Positions 48,503-56,501 of a stretch of 64,000 bases of DNA are shown here, piece after piece. A program made the position numbers and the translations under genes. Each line of letters opens with the position of its first letter. Position 1 is the stretch's first letter. Source of the DNA: Ruminococcus sp. GTDB taxonomy: Bacteria; Bacillota; Clostridia; Oscillospirales; Ruminococcaceae. The notes below the pieces were generated by a model. It was not told the origin of the DNA, did no database searches, and saw nothing but the letters and a program-made list of their open reading frames with translations. The DNA lies in assembly GCA_015066935.1 (NCBI GenBank), contig SVNK01000004.1, forward strand, positions 1 through 64,000, read 5' to 3'.

Positions 48503-49900
48503 ATGAAAAACAATAATTACGATCTGACAAAAGTTCCTCTTCTGAAAGGAATAATTTCTTACACCATCCCCATTATCCTCAGCGGACTTCTTCAGCTTAT
48601 GTTCAATGCCGCCGACCTGATTATAGTAGGACAGTTCTGCGGCGATCTTTCCGTAGCAGCCGTCGGAGCAACGGGACCGCTTATAAACCTGATTGTCAAT
48701 CTGTTTATAGGACTTTCCGTCGGTGCAGGCGTTACCGTAGCTCACGGACTCGGCTCAGGCATGACTAAAGACGTCCACCGTACCATACATACAGCCATTC
48801 CGACCGCATTTGTGGGAGGAGTCATCCTCACTGTTGTGGGAATCGGCGGTTCGGAATTCTTTCTTGAACTTATGGATACTCCAGACGACGTTATAGGACT
48901 TTCCGCAACTTATATGCGTATATATTTTGCGGGAATCATCTCGGGTATGCTCTACAATTTCGGCTCGGCAATACTTCGTGCTGCAGGCGATACAAAAGCT
49001 CCGCTGTATTATCTTGCCGCATCAGGACTCCTGAATGTTCTCCTGAACTTCATTTTCGTTCGTTTTCTGAACATGAATGTTGCAGGTGTAGCTCTTGCAA
49101 CTACTATTTCCCAGACTCTCTCCGCATTCCTGATTATCAGAAATCTTGCTCTGAGAAAAGACGCCTGTCGTCTTGAATTCAGAAAGATAAGATTTCACCG
49201 TCATCAGCTCAGACGTATCATCCGAATCGGAATCCCTGCAGGCATACAAGGTTCACTTTTCTCAATTTCAAACGTCATCATACAGTCATCTGTAAATTCG
49301 TTTGGTTCAATTGCGGTTTCGGGCAATTCAGCTGCAGGAAACCTCGAAGGCTTCGTCTACACAACCATGAACTCGTTCCACCAGACCGCACTCAATTTCA
49401 CAAGCAGCAATCACGGTGCAGGTAATTATGAACGCATCCGAAAAACACGCAATATCTGTCTGATATCAGTATTTATCGCCGGAGCTTCAATGGGATGGCT
49501 GTTCTACGCACTCGGCAAACCACTGCTCAGCTTCTACATCCCCGATTCTCCCGAAGCAATTGAATACGGCATGATTCGTATGGCATATATACTTATTCCG
49601 TATTTCCTGTGCGGACTTATGGACGTTGCAACAGGACTTATCAGAGGTCTCGGCTCATCAATTCTCCCCATGATTATAACAGTCGTGGGAGTCTGCGGAA
49701 TGCGTATAAGCTGGATATACACTATATTCAGAATCCCGAAATACCACACCCTTGAAAGTCTGTATATATCCTACACAATCTCATGGTCGCTTACATTCCT
49801 TGCAGAAATCATAATATTCGGAGTGCTTTACAGAAAGCTTGCAAGGAAATCGTCTCCATACGAAACAGAAGCTGACTATTCAGCCGCAGAAACACAGTAA
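48503..49900 (+). CDS. MATE family efflux transporter
   Basis: A 465-residue, 12-helix multidrug and toxin extrusion protein. The opening LLKGIISYTIPIILSGLLQLMFNAADLIIVG and the second-half NVIIQSSVNSFG region are typical of the DinF/NorM branch in Firmicutes. It exports drugs or metabolites in exchange for Na+ or H+; the substrate is unknown. AAGGAG precedes the ATG. Confidence 0.9.
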   Translation: MKNNNYDLTKVPLLKGIISYTIPIILSGLLQLMFNAADLIIVGQFCGDLSVAAVGATGPLINLIVNLFIGLSVGAGVTVAHGLGSGMTKDVHRTIHTAIPTAFVGGVILTVVGIGGSEFFLELMDTPDDVIGLSATYMRIYFAGIISGMLYNFGSAILRAAGDTKAPLYYLAASGLLNVLLNFIFVRFLNMNVAGVALATTISQTLSAFLIIRNLALRKDACRLEFRKIRFHRHQLRRIIRIGIPAGIQGSLFSISNVIIQSSVNSFGSIAVSGNSAAGNLEGFVYTTMNSFHQTALNFTSSNHGAGNYERIRKTRNICLISVFIAGASMGWLFYALGKPLLSFYIPDSPEAIEYGMIRMAYILIPYFLCGLMDVATGLIRGLGSSILPMIITVVGVCGMRISWIYTIFRIPKYHTLESLYISYTISWSLTFLAEIIIFGVLYRKLARKSSPYETEADYSAAETQ

Positions 49901-49906
49901 TTGCTA

Positions 49907-49935
49907 TTGACTTTTTTATAACAATGTTGTATAAT
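49907..49935 (+). promoter_or_regulatory. Promoter of the TM1266-hydG operon
   Basis: TTGACT (49907-49912) and TATAAT (49930-49935) have a 17-bp spacer. The transcript starts near 49942 and carries a leader of about 175 bases before the first gene. Confidence 0.85.
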
Positions 49936-49942
49936 AATATTG

Positions 49943-50102
49943 GTATCATGGGGAGCGAGGGAGTTTCCTTCACTCTGCATATGCCGATTAATCATGTTAT
50001 TGTTCTCGGGCAGCAGGGCGTGGCTCTGTTATCGGACGACGGTAAACGGCACAACCGATACTGTACACACCATCCGTCTGTCCGCAGACGGATTTTTATT
50101 TT
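49943..50102 (+). promoter_or_regulatory. Structured leader, candidate transcription-terminating riboswitch
   Basis: The leader ends in a strong intrinsic terminator: ATCCGTCTG and CAGACGGAT (50072-50093) form a 9-bp stem with a TCCG loop, followed by TTTTTATTTT. Upstream CGGACGACGG (50033-50042) can pair with the terminator's 5' arm and loop (CCGTC and GTCCG), acting as antiterminator. The same segment overlaps an upstream stem ATCGG/CCGAT (50031-50035 with 50055-50059). Further possible stems lie at 49950-50020, including GCATATGC and GATTAATC palindromes. This architecture fits a metabolite- or metal-sensing switch. I could not match it to a known class. Confidence 0.6.
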
Positions 50103-50118
50103 GCAAAGGGTGTGAATA

Positions 50119-50367
50119 ATGGAGGATAAAAGAATTGCTGTTGCCGCAATTGTTATTGATGAGCAGTCAGCGGCAGTCGAGGTCAATCGTGTGCTTCACG
50201 ACCACAGCGACATCATTATAGGAAGAATGGGAATCCCGTACAAGGAACGTGGAATCTCACTTATATCGGTAGCTCTTGACGCACATCCTGATGTAATAAG
50301 CAGTCTCACAGGAAGACTCGGAAAGATTCAGGGTGTATCCGTAAAAGCTGCAATTTCAAAAAAATAA
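50119..50367 (+). CDS. TM1266-type iron-only hydrogenase system regulator
   Basis: An 82-residue ACT/NikR-C-like alpha/beta protein without a DNA-binding domain. It matches the small family named iron-only hydrogenase system putative regulator, usually next to hydE, hydF or hydG (IGRMGIPYKERGISLISVALDA segment). GGGTG precedes the ATG, 26 bases after the leader terminator. Its position before hydG agrees with the family context; its mode of action is unknown. Confidence 0.9.
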   Translation: MEDKRIAVAAIVIDEQSAAVEVNRVLHDHSDIIIGRMGIPYKERGISLISVALDAHPDVISSLTGRLGKIQGVSVKAAISKK

Positions 50368-50383
50368 ACAGGAGGCAGATACT

Positions 50384-51832
50384 ATGTATGACGTTAAATC
50401 TTTAAAAGCTGAAGAATTCATAAACCATGAGGAAATACTCTCAACCCTCGAGTATGCCGAACAGAACAAGCATAACCGTGAGCTTATCGAGGAAATCCTT
50501 GAAAAGGCACGTCCTAAGAAAACAGGCAAAGGCGTTGAATGTGCAGGACTTACTCACCGTGAGGCAAGTGTGCTTCTTGCATGCGATATTCCCGAAATGA
50601 CCGAAAAAATGTACTCGCTCGCCCGTGAAATCAAGGAGGCTTTCTACGGAAACAGAATCGTAATGTTTGCACCCTTGTATCTTTCCAATTATTGTGTAAA
50701 TCAGTGCGTATACTGTCCATATCACTACCAGAACAAGGAAATCCCACGCAAGAAGCTCACTCAGGAAGAGGTGCGTCAGGAAGTCATCGCTCTTCAGGAT
50801 ATGGGACACAAGCGTCTTGCTATCGAAGCAGGCGAAGACCCCGTGAACAATCCAATTGAGTATATTCTTGAATGTATCAAAACAATTTACTCCATAAAAC
50901 ACAAGAACGGTGACATCAGACGTGTAAACGTGAATATTGCTGCTACAACAGTAGAAAACTACCGCAAGCTGAGAGACGCCGGAATCGGTACATATATCCT
51001 CTTCCAGGAGACTTACCATAAAGAAAGCTACGAAGCACTTCATCCGGCCGGTCCCAAGCATAATTACACATACCACACAGAGGCTATGGACAGAGCCATG
51101 GAGGGCGGTATCGACGATGTGGGTCTCGGTGTACTGTTCGGACTCGACAAGTATAAATATGAATTTGCAGGACTTCTCATGCACGCAGAACACCTCGAAG
51201 CTGTTCACGGAGTTGGTCCGCATACAATCAGCGTCCCCAGACTCAAGCGTGCTTCCGACATAGATCCTACTCAGTTCGACAACGGAATAGACGACGATAC
51301 ATTTGCAAAAATTATAGCTTGTATCAGAATTGCCGTTCCTTATACGGGAATGATTATCTCAACACGTGAGAGTGAGGAGTGCCGCAGCAAGGTTCTCGGA
51401 CTTGGCGTATCGCAGATTTCAGGCGGTTCAAGAACATCTGTCGGCGGATATGCCGGCTATTCCGATGAGGAAAGACCTCATGACACAGAGCAGTTCGACG
51501 TGTCTGACCAGCGTTCGCTCGACGAGGTTGTCAAGTGGCTCATGGACCTTGGATATATTCCGTCGTTCTGTACGGCTTGTTACCGTGAAGGCAGAACAGG
51601 TGACCGTTTCATGCAGCTTTGCAAAATAGGTCAGATTCAGAACTGCTGCCATCCGAATGCACTTATGACCCTTCAGGAGTATCTTGAGGATTACGCTCAC
51701 CCCGATACAAAAGAGGTCGGAGAAGCACTTATAAAACGTGAAATCGAAAATGTCACAAATCCAAAGGTCAAGGAAATTGCGATTGCAAATCTTGATGCCA
51801 TCAAGAACGGAAAAAGAGATTTCCGCTTCTGA
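50384..51832 (+). CDS. hydG: [FeFe]-hydrogenase H-cluster radical SAM maturase HydG
   Basis: A 482-residue radical SAM enzyme that cleaves tyrosine to form the CO and CN ligands of the H-cluster. CVNQCVYCPYH carries the SAM-binding [4Fe-4S] Cys triad, and the C-terminal CTACYREGRTG...CKIGQIQNCCHPNA holds the auxiliary cluster. AGGAGG precedes the ATG. HydE, HydF and the hydrogenase are not in the window. Confidence 0.97.
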   Translation: MYDVKSLKAEEFINHEEILSTLEYAEQNKHNRELIEEILEKARPKKTGKGVECAGLTHREASVLLACDIPEMTEKMYSLAREIKEAFYGNRIVMFAPLYLSNYCVNQCVYCPYHYQNKEIPRKKLTQEEVRQEVIALQDMGHKRLAIEAGEDPVNNPIEYILECIKTIYSIKHKNGDIRRVNVNIAATTVENYRKLRDAGIGTYILFQETYHKESYEALHPAGPKHNYTYHTEAMDRAMEGGIDDVGLGVLFGLDKYKYEFAGLLMHAEHLEAVHGVGPHTISVPRLKRASDIDPTQFDNGIDDDTFAKIIACIRIAVPYTGMIISTRESEECRSKVLGLGVSQISGGSRTSVGGYAGYSDEERPHDTEQFDVSDQRSLDEVVKWLMDLGYIPSFCTACYREGRTGDRFMQLCKIGQIQNCCHPNALMTLQEYLEDYAHPDTKEVGEALIKREIENVTNPKVKEIAIANLDAIKNGKRDFRF

Positions 51833-51908: not shown

Positions 51909-51937
51909 TTGACATTTTATATACAATGTGATATTAT
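51909..51937 (+). promoter_or_regulatory. Promoter of the phosphonate cluster
   Basis: Perfect TTGACA (51909-51914) and TATTAT (51932-51937) with a 17-bp spacer. A GTAACA-N7-TGTTAC dyad (51887-51905) lies just upstream of the -35 and could be an operator. Confidence 0.85.
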
Positions 51938-51939
51938 AT

Positions 51940-51992
51940 ATATTGTTCAAAATAACAGCCGGTGCTGCACTGTTTTGAACAATATTTTTTTT
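51940..51992 (+). promoter_or_regulatory. Terminator-like leader hairpin before the phosphonate genes
   Basis: Perfect 13-bp arms ATATTGTTCAAAA (51940-51952) and its complement (51973-51985), extended by ACAG/CTGT, run into eight T immediately before the GAGGT ribosome site. The start of transcription falls inside the 5' arm, so the whole transcript begins with this structure. It could attenuate expression, stabilise the 5' end, or serve as a DNA operator. Confidence 0.6.
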
Positions 51993-52004
51993 GAGGTATT
52001 ATAT

Positions 52005-52901
52005 ATGAAAACAGAACTTTCAAGAAAACAATTTGATATTCTGGAGATCCTTGCCGAAGAAAATCAGATGCTCACCCAAAGGCTTCTTGCCGACAAAAGC
52101 AACCATTCCCTCGGTACTGTAAACCGTGTTGTGAAGGAGCTTACAGCCCTCGGTTACATGAACGACAAGGGAATTACTCAGGAAGGCATAAACGCTCTGG
52201 AACCTTACAGGGTAAAGCGTGCCGTGTTCATTGCAGCAGGTTTCGGCTCACGTCTTGTACCTGTAACACTCAATACGCCCAAGCCTCTCGTAAGAGTTAA
52301 CGGCAAACGTATCATCGACGGTCTCCTTGACGCCGTAATCGAAGCAGGAATCGAAGAAATAATCATCGTAAGAGGCTATCTTGCAGAACAGTTCGACCAG
52401 CTTCTCTATAAATATCCCATGATAAAATTCATCGACAACCCCGATTACAACTCCGCAAACAATATATCATCGGCAATGTGTGCCCGTGAGCTTCTCTGCA
52501 ATGCGTATGTTTTCGAGGCTGACCTGCTTATACATAACCCGAAAATCGTTCGTAAGTACCACTACACATCAAACTTCCTCGGTATAAAGATGGAACGCTC
52601 CGACGACTGGTGCTTCACTGCCCCCGACGGTATCATAACTTCACAGACTGTCGGCGGTCTCAACTGCTATCAGGAGGTGGGAATCTCCTATTGGAACGAG
52701 GAGGACGGAAAAAAACTTTCCGAACATATCAAGTCCACTTTTGAAATGCCGGGCGGCAGAGAACGCTACTGGGATCAGGTTCCTTTTGTGTTCTTCCCCG
52801 AGCATTATAAGGTTGAAATCCGTGAATGTCTTGACACGGATATTGTCGAAATCGACACGTTTACAGAGCTCAAGACTATAGACAAAGCTTACGATGTTTA
52901 A
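52005..52901 (+). CDS. HTH-linked LicC-like cytidylyltransferase (PntC-type)
   Basis: A 298-residue protein. Residues 1-65 form a winged-helix domain (SRKQFDILEILAEE, SLGTVNRVVKELTALGY). Residues 70-298 are a MobA/LicC-type nucleotidyltransferase with AAGFGSRLVPVTLNTPKPLV and EADLLIHNP. LicC activates phosphocholine; close relatives (PntC) activate 2-aminoethylphosphonate as CMP-AEP. As first gene ahead of phnW-pepM-ppd, CMP-AEP formation is the likely reaction by context. Whether the HTH part binds DNA is unknown. ATG 52005 follows GAGGT. Confidence 0.8.
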   Translation: MKTELSRKQFDILEILAEENQMLTQRLLADKSNHSLGTVNRVVKELTALGYMNDKGITQEGINALEPYRVKRAVFIAAGFGSRLVPVTLNTPKPLVRVNGKRIIDGLLDAVIEAGIEEIIIVRGYLAEQFDQLLYKYPMIKFIDNPDYNSANNISSAMCARELLCNAYVFEADLLIHNPKIVRKYHYTSNFLGIKMERSDDWCFTAPDGIITSQTVGGLNCYQEVGISYWNEEDGKKLSEHIKSTFEMPGGRERYWDQVPFVFFPEHYKVEIRECLDTDIVEIDTFTELKTIDKAYDV

Positions 52902-52922
52902 TATAAAACGGAGGATTATATT

Positions 52923-54053
52923 ATGGAAATCAAACGCAATATTTTACTTAACCCCGGTCCGTCAACAACTACCGATACTGTAAAAATGGCTCAGGTAGTC
53001 CCCGACATCTGTCCCCGTGAAAAGGAATTCGGCTCGCTTATGAAGGGGCTGCGTGAGGACCTTGTGCGTATCGTCCACGGTGACCCTGATAAGTACACAT
53101 CCGTACTTTTCTGCGGTTCAGGTACGATAAATATCGACGTATGCATCAACTCACTGCTCCCCGATGGTAAAAAAGCTCTTATCGTCAATAATGGAGCTTA
53201 CAGCACACGTGCTGCCGAGGTCTGCGAATTCTACGGTCTGCCATACATCGACCTCAGATTCCCCGTTGACCAGCTTCCCGACCTCGCTGTAGTTGAAAAA
53301 ATTCTCAGAGACAACCCTGACATCGCTCTCGTCCACACAACCCACAACGAAACAGGTACGGGACTCCTCAATCCTATCCGTGAAATCGGTGCTCTCGCCC
53401 ATAAGTACGACGCTGTTTTCACTGTTGACACCACTTCTACCTATGCTATGCGTCCCATAAACATCGAGGAGGATAATATCGACTTCTGTATGGCTTCCGC
53501 ACAGAAGGGTCTTATGGCTATGACGGGACTTTCGTTTGTTGTCGGCAACAGAGCAATTATCGAAAAGTCAAAGGATTATCCCAAGCGTTCATATTACTGT
53601 AATCTGTTCCTCCAGTATGATTTCTTCGAGAAAACAGGTGAAATGCATTTCACTCCGCCCGTTCAGACTGTATATTCAACTATTCAGGCACTCAAGGAGT
53701 ACTTCGCAGAGGGCGAAGAAGCAAAATGGGCTCGTCATACAAGAGTTTTCAATGCCATTAACAAGGGTCTTGACGAACTTGGATTCCGTCAGGTAATCAA
53801 GCCTGAAAACAGAGCCGGTCTTGTATCGTCGGCAGTCTACCCCGACGACCCCAACTGGAACTTCGAAACTGTTCATGATTACTGCTATGAACGTGGATTC
53901 ACCATATATCCCGGAAAAATCTCAACTACAAATACATTCAGACTCTGTGCTCTCGGTGCCATTGACGAGGCCGACATCACAGACTTCTTCAAGGTCTTCC
54001 GTGAGGCTCTTGAAGCAAATAATATAGCAATCCCCGTAAAATACAACGACTAA
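52923..54053 (+). CDS. phnW: 2-aminoethylphosphonate-pyruvate transaminase type enzyme
   Basis: A 376-residue fold type I PLP aminotransferase of the PhnW/serine-glyoxylate group. LLNPGPSTTT opens the protein, FCGSGT lines the cofactor site, VDTTSTYA carries the PLP-ring Asp, and ASAQKGLMAM the Schiff-base Lys (about 200). In this cluster it should run in the biosynthetic direction, converting phosphonoacetaldehyde to 2-aminoethylphosphonate. Confidence 0.92.
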   Translation: MEIKRNILLNPGPSTTTDTVKMAQVVPDICPREKEFGSLMKGLREDLVRIVHGDPDKYTSVLFCGSGTINIDVCINSLLPDGKKALIVNNGAYSTRAAEVCEFYGLPYIDLRFPVDQLPDLAVVEKILRDNPDIALVHTTHNETGTGLLNPIREIGALAHKYDAVFTVDTTSTYAMRPINIEEDNIDFCMASAQKGLMAMTGLSFVVGNRAIIEKSKDYPKRSYYCNLFLQYDFFEKTGEMHFTPPVQTVYSTIQALKEYFAEGEEAKWARHTRVFNAINKGLDELGFRQVIKPENRAGLVSSAVYPDDPNWNFETVHDYCYERGFTIYPGKISTTNTFRLCALGAIDEADITDFFKVFREALEANNIAIPVKYND

Positions 54054-54062
54054 GGAGAAAGT

Positions 54063-55358
54063 ATGAAAACAGTTTACACCTGCTTCTGCACCGATATAAT
54101 TCACGAGGGACACCTCAATATAATCGAACAGGCAAAAAAGCTCGGAAGCGTTACAATCGGTGCTCTCAGTGACAAAGCACTCATCCGCTACAACAAATTC
54201 CCTACAATTTCTCAGGAAGAAAGAATCCGTCTTTATACGTCTCTTGACGGCGTTGACAGAGTGGTGGTTCAGGACAGCATGGTTTATGAAGACGTAATCT
54301 CATCTCTGAAGCCTGACTACGTTCTTCACGGCGATAACTGGAGGAATGGTCCCGAAGCCGCAATCAGAGCCAACGTCCTCAGACTTCTTGAAGAATACGG
54401 CGGCGAACTTATCGAAATCCCCTACACACGAAATGAAAACGTGAAAAAAATAGATTCACAGCTCAAAGAGAAGCTTTCTATGCCCGAATACCGCAGAAAG
54501 CGTCTCAGACAGCTTATTGATATGTGTCCCGTTGTAAAGACAATAGAGGCTCACAGTGGTCTTACAGGTCTTATTGCTGAAAAGACGGTTGTCGAGAACA
54601 ACGGTCACCTCGACCAGTTCGACGCTATGTGGGTAAGTTCTCTGTGCGACTCAACAGCAAAGGGCAAGCCCGACATCGAGCTTGTTGATATGTCATCACG
54701 TCTGCGTACAATCGACGACATCATGGAGGTCACAACAAAGCCAATTATTCTCGACGGCGATACCGGCGGACTTACCGAGCATTTCATCTACAACGTCAGA
54801 ACCCTTGAACGTATGGGCGTTTCTGCCGTTATTATCGAGGATAAAACTGGTCTCAAGAAGAATTCTCTGTTCGGTACGGAAGTTGAGCAGACTCAGGATT
54901 CCATTGAGAATTTCTGCGAAAAAATCAAAGCGGGAAAGCGTGTTCAGCTTACCGATGATTTCATGATTATTGCCCGTATTGAAAGTCTTATCCTTGAACG
55001 TGGAATGGAGGACGCTCTCACACGTGCTTTTGCGTACGTTGACGCAGGCGTTGACGGAATCATGATTCACAGCCGCCGCAAGGAGCCTGATGAAATCTTC
55101 GAATTCTGTGACAAGTTCCGTGAAAAGGTAAAGGATATACCGATTGTCGTTGTCCCGACTTCCTATAATCAGGTTACAGAGGACGAACTCTCAGCTCACG
55201 GCGTAAACATCGTAATCTATGCAAACCAGCTTACAAGAAGTGCGTTCCCTGCCATGCAGCAGACCGCTGAGGACATTCTCCGCAATCACCGTGCCAAGGA
55301 AGTTGACGACAGACTCATGTCCATCAAGCATATCATCACGCTCATTGACGAGCTTTAA
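54063..55358 (+). CDS. pepM: Cytidylyltransferase-PEP phosphomutase fusion
   Basis: A 431-residue two-domain protein. Residues 1-135 are a small nucleotidyltransferase fold (CTDIIHEGHLNIIEQAK, HxGH motif; PTISQEERI). Residues 150-431 are the PepM barrel of the isocitrate lyase superfamily, with DGDTGG metal site and the loop EDKTGLKKNS in place of the usual EDKxxPKxNS. PepM isomerises PEP to phosphonopyruvate, the committed step to nearly all phosphonates. Such N-terminal fusions occur in other bacteria. With the LicC-like gene, the cluster contains two cytidylyltransferase folds. Confidence 0.93.
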   Translation: MKTVYTCFCTDIIHEGHLNIIEQAKKLGSVTIGALSDKALIRYNKFPTISQEERIRLYTSLDGVDRVVVQDSMVYEDVISSLKPDYVLHGDNWRNGPEAAIRANVLRLLEEYGGELIEIPYTRNENVKKIDSQLKEKLSMPEYRRKRLRQLIDMCPVVKTIEAHSGLTGLIAEKTVVENNGHLDQFDAMWVSSLCDSTAKGKPDIELVDMSSRLRTIDDIMEVTTKPIILDGDTGGLTEHFIYNVRTLERMGVSAVIIEDKTGLKKNSLFGTEVEQTQDSIENFCEKIKAGKRVQLTDDFMIIARIESLILERGMEDALTRAFAYVDAGVDGIMIHSRRKEPDEIFEFCDKFREKVKDIPIVVVPTSYNQVTEDELSAHGVNIVIYANQLTRSAFPAMQQTAEDILRNHRAKEVDDRLMSIKHIITLIDEL

Positions 55359-55376
55359 ATCAAACGGAGTAATATT

Positions 55377-56501
55377 ATGAAAGTAGAAAAGCTTACCGAG
55401 ATTATCGGCTCGGATTTTTATACGGGAGTCCCCGATTCCCAGCTCAAGGCACTCTGCAACTACCTCATGAACACATACGGCATCGACAAGGCTCACCACA
55501 TTATCGCTGCCAACGAGGGAAGCTGTACTGCTCTTGCAGCAGGCTACCATCTTGCAACGGGAAAGCTTCCCGTTGTATATATGCAGAATTCAGGCGAGGG
55601 CAATATCATTAACCCTGCGGCATCACTGCTCAGCGACAAGGTGTACGCAATCCCAATGATCTTCATTATCGGCTGGAGAGGCGAACCCGGAGTCCACGAT
55701 GAACCTCAGCACATCTATCAGGGCGAGGTTACAGTAAAGCTCCTCGACGACATGAATATTCCTTCATTCATTATCAGCAAGGATACAACTGACGAAGAAG
55801 CTGCCGAAGCCATGTCAGACTTCCGCAAAGTCCTCTCAGAGGGCAGACAGGCTGCTTTCGTCATCAGAAAGGGTGCCCTTTCGTACAGCGAGGACGTTGA
55901 ATATAAGAACAGCAACACCATGGTACGTGAAGAAATTATCAGACATATTGCTGCGGCATCAGGTGAAGCTCCTGTTGTTTCGACTACAGGCAAGGCAAGC
56001 CGTGAGCTGTTCGAAATACGTGAAGCAAACGGTCAGAGTCACAAGTATGACTTCCTTACAGTCGGCTCAATGGGTCACAGCTCATCAATCGCACTCGGAA
56101 TCGCACTGAACAAGCCTGATACTAAGGTCTGGTGCATCGACGGAGACGGTGCTGTTCTCATGCATATGGGAGCCATGGCTGTTCTCGGAGCAAATGCTCC
56201 TGAGAATCTTATCCACGTTGTTATCAACAACGGTGCTCATGAGACTGTCGGCGGTATGCCTACTGTTGCGGAAACCATTGATATTCCCGCAATCGCCAAG
56301 GCTTGCGGATATAAATATGCAGTCTGTGCCGACAGCTTCGAAGTCCTCGACAAAGAACTTGAAGCCGCAAAAAATCGCAGCGGACTTTCACTGATTGAGG
56401 TGAAATGCTCAATCGGTGCAAGGGACAACCTCGGCAGACCTACAACAACTGCCCTTGAAAACAAGAATAATTTCATGGAATATCTCAGCGAACTCAAATA
56501 A
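55377..56501 (+). CDS. Phosphonopyruvate decarboxylase
   Basis: A 374-residue TPP-dependent enzyme. The N-terminal half binds the pyrimidine side (GVPDSQLKAL, AANEGSCTALAAGYHLATG), and the C-terminal half carries the pyrophosphate motif WCIDGDGAVLMHMGAM ending VINNGAHETVGG. It decarboxylates phosphonopyruvate to phosphonoacetaldehyde, making the otherwise uphill PepM reaction irreversible. It completes PEP to 2-AEP with PepM and PhnW. Confidence 0.95.
   Translation: MKVEKLTEIIGSDFYTGVPDSQLKALCNYLMNTYGIDKAHHIIAANEGSCTALAAGYHLATGKLPVVYMQNSGEGNIINPAASLLSDKVYAIPMIFIIGWRGEPGVHDEPQHIYQGEVTVKLLDDMNIPSFIISKDTTDEEAAEAMSDFRKVLSEGRQAAFVIRKGALSYSEDVEYKNSNTMVREEIIRHIAAASGEAPVVSTTGKASRELFEIREANGQSHKYDFLTVGSMGHSSSIALGIALNKPDTKVWCIDGDGAVLMHMGAMAVLGANAPENLIHVVINNGAHETVGGMPTVAETIDIPAIAKACGYKYAVCADSFEVLDKELEAAKNRSGLSLIEVKCSIGARDNLGRPTTTALENKNNFMEYLSELK

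Follow-up and report, generated by a model that had tools for sequence, protein, structure and literature searches.

The TM1266-hydG operon of a Ruminococcus sp. is preceded by a structured cis-regulatory RNA that has no match in Rfam and that is found only upstream of genes of the TM1266 family, if weak matches elsewhere are read as chance. It consists of two tandem hairpins (P1 and P2) followed by an intrinsic terminator and, judged from predicted foldings and their conservation, probably acts as a transcription attenuator of the operon, which would be off while P2 is closed and read through when P2 is open. The element is common to about a hundred related bacteria, in which it probably decides the reading of the TM1266-hydG genes, and it adds a well-supported RNA to the clues on the regulation of H-cluster assembly in gut bacteria that digest fibre. 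As attenuator-like leaders recur before TM1266 in many genera, they also provide a lead on the role of this "putative regulator".

The window, i.e., the whole stretch of 64,000 nucleotides that was analysed (contig SVNK01000004.1), contains the following features around the leader.

49907 to 49935, forward strand: promoter with -35 TTGACT and -10 TATAAT, 17-nt spacer (11 of 12 consensus matches)
49942 to 49985, forward strand: hairpin P1, degenerate in the window (fold, alignment to the covariance model, consensus of relatives)
49997 to 50045, forward strand: hairpin P2 with the conserved internal modules UCGGGCA and UAUCGGA, which form G.G and C.A mismatches (folds, model alignment, covariation in relatives)
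50033 to 50042, forward strand: CGGACGACGG, 3' strand of P2 and possible antiterminator strand (complementary to 5' arm and loop of the terminator)
50072 to 50102, forward strand: intrinsic terminator ATCCGTCTG-TCCG-CAGACGGAT with T-run, 9-bp stem (terminator scan)
50119 to 50367, forward strand: TM1266-family gene, putative iron-hydrogenase system regulator (TIGR03959, 106.9 bits, cut-off 60.8; fold search)
50384 to 51832, forward strand: hydG, radical SAM maturase of the H-cluster (TIGR03955, 918.9 bits, cut-off 312.15)

A sequence-only reading of this DNA had placed a clear promoter ahead of the leader and a strong intrinsic terminator at its end, and both are present as described. The order of promoter, structured leader, intrinsic terminator, and gene, all predicted from sequence, is the architecture of an attenuator. 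Scans for promoters and terminators alone perform near chance, with two of each found versus 3.0 and 1.3, respectively, in shuffles. The leader as a whole has a folding z of -3.9, none of 200 shuffles being equally stable, and because its fold is far better than those of shuffles and the arrangement is conserved in relatives, it is not a product of chance. Compared with its own genome, the leader DNA matches only itself, and a search of a phage collection gave no match. The best rows of a DNA-similarity search are short, and few lie at TM1266 (G260, G019, and G143 among the matches listed). A leader peptide was considered for the window and rejected; the 63-aa open reading frame at 49924-50115 begins within the promoter and has no Pfam match. 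Downstream of hydG, the operon is adjoined by a phosphonate biosynthesis set (51909-56501) consisting of a nucleotidyltransferase-like protein, 2-aminoethylphosphonate aminotransferase, PEP mutase with a cytidylyltransferase-like domain, and phosphonopyruvate decarboxylase.

Conservation and covariation of the two hairpins

A search with the TM1266 protein yielded 71 loci, 49 of which (L062-L110, TM1266 76-94% identical) belong to bacteria that mostly go by the name Ruminococcus. A similar leader lies directly before TM1266 at 37 of the 49, and 36 of these leaders, with the window excluded, form alignment A1. The leader of L096 is degenerate, mainly its P1 half matching. The consensus derived from A1 is GCGGA-NNN-GGAUUUAUUC-NNN-UYGGC for P1 and UGUUUUCGGRCA-GCAGGGU-loop-ACUCUGU-UAUCGGAUGGCA for P2. 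In this alignment, 94.8% of the cells are paired, 13 of 27 pairs show double changes, and none of 500 shuffles was as high on all five measures; if the structure is shifted by 1-3 columns, only 35-51% remain paired. An independent set of 29 unused leaders plus one reference, aligned by sequence alone and scored on the A1 structure, is 92.8% paired with 15 pairs doubly changed, and only 0-2 of 500 shuffles reach such values. For 77 leaders the figures are 93.6% paired and 21 of 27 pairs doubly changed, in an alignment fitted to the model; since A2 and A3 were fitted to the structure, these counts lean towards it, and those from A1 and the independent set are fairer. One row of A2 (L178:1208-1300:+) was left out as a wrong-strand artefact. 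The expectation that homologous leaders would covary and keep a terminator is thus borne out, as covariation is strong and both the structure and a terminator-like hairpin are kept.

Both hairpins carry the same internal module, in which 5'-CGGR-3' faces 5'-U(C/U)GG-3' and a G.G mismatch is thereby placed between two pairs. The CGGR/UCGG pattern is found in P1 of 68 of the 77 leaders, in P2 of all 77, and in both hairpins of 68, and each of the eight UCGG letters of P2, counted over both strands, is kept in 71-77 of the 77. By eye, some nine steps separate the module from the loop in either hairpin, and the G.G is lost in a few members, e.g., L169, L224, L226, and L228. With the module present twice, the leader may bind a dimer or offer two sites to its partner.

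Left out of the model, the window still scores 47.8 bits at 49948-50045 (E 9e-9), the sole match in its genome at E 1. Its P2 is intact and keeps the G.G and C.A mismatches; its P1 is still a hairpin and lacks the AUUUAU loop and the CGGR/UCGG module. P2 is likewise kept beside a degenerate P1 in L222 and L225. The reverse combination, a P1 that follows the consensus and a P2 that is shortened, missing, or altered, occurs in L226, L228, L230, L232, L169, and L224, the altered P2 having, by eye, the G.G replaced by U.U or a normal pair. As P1 of the window departs from the consensus and some members (L226, L228, L230, and L232) are without a normal P2, not every part seems to be needed everywhere.

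The sequence-only reading could not match the leader to a class, and the comparison with Rfam 15 agrees. The whole window gave only tRNAs, as did 20 related loci, and positions 49850-50150, searched up to E 10, gave a single match of 15 bits versus a gathering score of 60. Among 11 further loci searched up to E 3, all matches in leaders are below gathering (at best 29 of 60, and 22.3 of 38), and 20 TM1266 loci from other genera contain no gathering-level match in their leaders, weak matches in L298 (1113-1214) being below gathering as well. A known Rfam class is therefore ruled out, every leader match being below its gathering score. A T-box leader was also rejected, there being no match to the Rfam T-box model in the window or the related loci searched.

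Distribution and association with TM1266

In the window's genus, 99 of 125 genomes, and 58 of the 68 of good quality, have a match to the first model at E ≤0.1 (E values are per genome). At the family level, 14 of 396 genomes and seven of 126 genera match, the window's genus included; the matches in G285 and G166 look like chance, and five genera outside the window's own (g6, g77, g78, g85, and g89) possess the element. TM1266 lies downstream in 96 of the 98 genus matches checked, that is, at 91 of 92 aligned leaders (window included) and at five accepted weak matches (L233-L236 and L238, E 0.0017 to 0.023), the 99th match, G370, lying outside this set. By its coordinates, the match in L234 overlaps the gene start. 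The two exceptions are L148, which is at a contig end, and L239, which is weak (E 0.08) and is read as chance. A second model, applied to 100 further upstream regions of TM1266 from the family, gave six matches at E <0.001 (L249, L273, L308, L312, L316, and L292), and it rematches L009, L015, L016, L031, and L172. Outside the genus, the element stands at TM1266 in L167, L168, L170-L173, and the six second-model matches. Five weak matches (L174, L175, L237, L240, and L344) are not at TM1266 and are read as chance, and G019 and G206, from the same genus, have only doubtful matches before TM1266 (22.8 and 19.6 bits).

TM1266 is far more widespread than the element and occurs in 145 of 297 family genomes. 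No believable match was found at 22 other loci (L111-L132), i.e., in none of the 21 with upstream DNA, L112 being cut at the gene. A sample of 295 genomes from the order gave one match other than the window's own (E 0.009, not at TM1266), and one of 341 genomes from the class gave none besides the window at E 0.001; both searches used stricter filters, with which weak matches are lost. In the window's own genome, hydE, hydF, and the one [FeFe]-hydrogenase domain match lie elsewhere, and the element is absent there even with filters off (best E 3.4).

The sequence-only reading had proposed the leader as a candidate new riboswitch class that controls hydrogenase maturation through TM1266-hydG. 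A structured, conserved, and terminator-bearing leader does exist at that operon, but it seems to track TM1266 and not hydG alone, since L172 (g78) has TM1266 followed by hydE (TIGR03956, 304.6 bits) and since other operons with the leader begin with a hydrolase gene. The leader of L172 is itself a weak match (31.2 bits) with a degenerate P2, 301 nt from the gene. The hydrolase-first operons make up 12 of the 49 Ruminococcus-group loci (L079-L081, L085, L087-L089, L091, L092, L095, L098, and L105). In all 12, the model places the leader about 1 kb further upstream, and the operon begins with the hydrolase gene (57-100% identity to the one in L085), which separates the leader from TM1266. The L085 hydrolase has weak Pfam matches to alpha/beta-hydrolases (Palm_thioest, Lipase_2). 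Altogether, 27 aligned leaders are at least 600 nt away from TM1266.

Predicted attenuation by alternative pairing

A promoter with at least nine of 12 matches lies just upstream of P1 in 90 of 96 related leaders, two of the 98 having been left out as too near the contig start. P1 begins 4-6 nt past the -10 in 79 of the 96, and the transcript therefore probably starts at P1. The upstream regions of 31 of the 96 also contain an inverted repeat, TTAG-N5-9-CTAA (e.g., TTAGTATATACTAA), versus 2% of shuffles, situated 9-11 nt ahead of the -35 in 27 of these and missing in the window; it is possibly a transcription-factor site. At the other end, loose criteria detect a terminator-like hairpin past P2 in all 98 aligned leaders, a few of these hairpins, e.g., in L200, L206, and L223, being weak or distant.

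In the mechanism proposed here, P1 and P2 would form first. If P2 stays closed, the terminator would form and the operon would be off; opening of P2 would free one strand to pair with the 5' arm of the terminator, and transcription would continue. A factor that binds and stabilises P1-P2 would thus be expected to lower expression, because closed P2 goes together with the terminator and open P2 with antitermination.

The pairing of CGGACGACGG with the 5' arm and loop of the terminator, put forward in the sequence-only reading, is confirmed as a complementarity, its partner being CCGTC-T-GTCCG and the predicted duplex having -13.7 kcal/mol. That reading also had the same bases overlap an upstream ATCGG/CCGAT stem. 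The letters exist in the window, ATCGG at 50031-50035 and CCGAT at 50055-50059, but the stem is not conserved and is absent from the minimum-energy folds of the window for transcript ends 50084-50093. In relatives, the ATCGG bases belong to the 3' strand of P2 and pair with the upstream UCGGGCA. The idea of mutually exclusive pairings may hold in altered form, as P2 and the antiterminator are predicted to share bases, but the upstream partner is UCGGGCA of P2 and not CCGAT.

Folding energies, which are equilibrium predictions, are consistent with such a competition. As long as the 3' arm of the terminator has not been made, P2 is the main predicted partner of the 5' arm in 48 of 77 leaders, through its 3' strand in 33 and its 5' strand in 15. 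In the other 29, the arm is predicted to be mostly free (13) or to pair with P1 (nine), the linker (four), or downstream sequence (three). The mean gain over an arm kept free is 5.6 kcal/mol. When terminator arms were swapped among 34 leaders, own arms scored -9.42 versus -8.59, and 151 of 20000 permutations were as low. With L200, L205, L206, and L214 dropped, whose called terminators are distant or odd, the remaining 30 leaders gave -5.26 versus -4.56 permuted (438 of 20000 as low). The effect is modest (p about 0.01-0.02), and in the test with 34 leaders the own arm is equalled by anywhere from one to 32 of the 33 others. For the window, the predictions have P2 melting at transcript ends 50084-50090 and re-forming once the terminator is complete. 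At these ends, the arm would pair with the 5' strand of P2 (50008-50018), and at end 50083 with the 3' strand, so that a single transcript base changes the prediction.

Possible partners of the leader and known systems

What would open or close P2 can be read in several ways. Quite possibly, though we put this forward tentatively, the leader is a true riboswitch, in which a small molecule or ion connected with H-cluster assembly would bind to P1-P2, stabilise P2, and so cause termination. The near-invariant mismatched nucleotides in both hairpins and the presence of a terminator platform speak for it. No ligand is indicated, however, and the suggestion of the sequence-only reading that it is tied to tyrosine, SAM, iron, or redox state found no support; either P1 or P2 can be degenerate or lost, and the element occurs at one kind of operon only, none being present at hydE, hydF, or the hydrogenase gene of the same genome. 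Duplicated hairpin modules would also be no less compatible with a protein partner than with a small molecule.

Autogenous control, in which termination would be set by TM1266 protein bound to both similar hairpins as a dimer or higher oligomer, is possible but rather doubtful. It would account for a leader that tracks TM1266, also where hydE or a hydrolase gene belongs to the operon, and for the G.G-containing module shared by both hairpins in 68 of the 77 leaders. According to a fold search, TM1266 has a NikR-C/ACT-like sensor fold (identity 15-20%), and with its 82 residues it resembles a stand-alone sensor; NikR has a DNA-binding domain, for which TM1266, judged from length and coverage, would have no room. 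On the other hand, NikR-C and ACT folds usually serve to sense metals or amino acids, and we know of no report of RNA binding for the TM1266 family. The wide occurrence of TM1266 beyond the element, with none of the 21 more distant loci possessing it, also argues against autogenous control.

In favour of autogenous control, terminators just before TM1266 recur in other genera together with other hairpin modules. A strong terminator lies within about 110 nt before the TM1266 match in 49 of 100 other upstream regions from the family, six of the 49 having the element, versus none of 100 letter shuffles. The same is true for 19 of the 30 top-scoring family loci (four with the element; 0 of 30 shuffled) and for nine of 21 loci outside the Ruminococcus group (0 of 21 shuffled). 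In many of the loci examined (L002-L031, L111-L132, and L244-L343), the terminator is situated about 20-65 nt before the TM1266 match. Among element-free leaders, 31 of 42 have a promoter with at least 10 of 12 matches further upstream, versus 6% in shuffles, which places the terminator inside a leader. Hairpins with RA/GA internal loops occur in 28 of 99 leaders versus 5% shuffled; around RA/GA anchors, 1.79 of four outer-stem positions are paired versus 1.45 permuted (0 of 5000 as good), and at least three of the four are paired in 33 of 100 loci. A P1-like loop of the GAUUnUUC type is present in 18 of 93 versus 4.6% shuffled. This evidence consists of pattern counts with simple letter or doublet shuffles as controls, related genomes and overlapping pattern matches being counted as they come. 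One might speculate, with little confidence, that proteins of the TM1266 family are RNA-binding attenuation proteins that read duplicated hairpins in their own leaders and, throughout Clostridia, adjust the expression of hydG or hydE to the state of metals or cofactors in [FeFe]-hydrogenase assembly; the modules may then be CGGR/UCGG in Ruminococcus and RA/GA internal loops elsewhere.

A different trans-acting factor, protein or RNA, such as an ANTAR-type antiterminator, seems unlikely to control the leader. Tandem hairpins ahead of a terminator are the architecture of ANTAR targets (PMC3369931), whose loops are described as hexaloops with an obligatory A in the first and G in the fourth position. 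Only one of 77 P1 loops and none of 77 P2 loops fit these letters, and an ANTAR target RNA was accordingly rejected. It is very unlikely that the leader is an ordinary one whose fixed terminator merely lowers expression with no sensing, since near-invariant mismatched nucleotides across 34 groups at <75% identity are hard to explain in that way, even if P2 plus terminator are predicted as the stable end state.

The literature searched (titles and abstract openings) contained no report of a TM1266-leader RNA, and the terms hydG, hydrogenase, Ruminococc, and TM1266 do not occur in the main texts of PMC11109978, PMC8632094, PMC6429828, and PMC2864571. As far as these searches show, the RNA, its pair of modules, and its link to TM1266 are new. 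Leaders with competing terminator and antiterminator are already known as a general principle, and the proposed attenuator can be compared with three systems.

With the guanidine-II (mini-ykkC) riboswitch it shares a leader with two similar small hairpins; it appears to differ in having no Rfam match and in repeating an internal module, with P1 loops that are mostly AUUUAU and P2 loops of 2-5 nt in 75 of 77 leaders. ANTAR targets likewise have a tandem hairpin pair just before an intrinsic terminator and set termination by alternative pairing, whereas here the most conserved letters are internal mismatches and an AUUUAU loop (61 of 77), and P2 overlaps the predicted antiterminator instead of the terminator. 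Attenuators under autogenous control by a protein, e.g., the B. subtilis rplJL leader (cf. PMC4538822), differ in that binding of RNA by TM1266 is hypothetical here, and resemble the present leader in being an RNA element of one operon that tracks the gene of its possible binder and uses a terminator platform.
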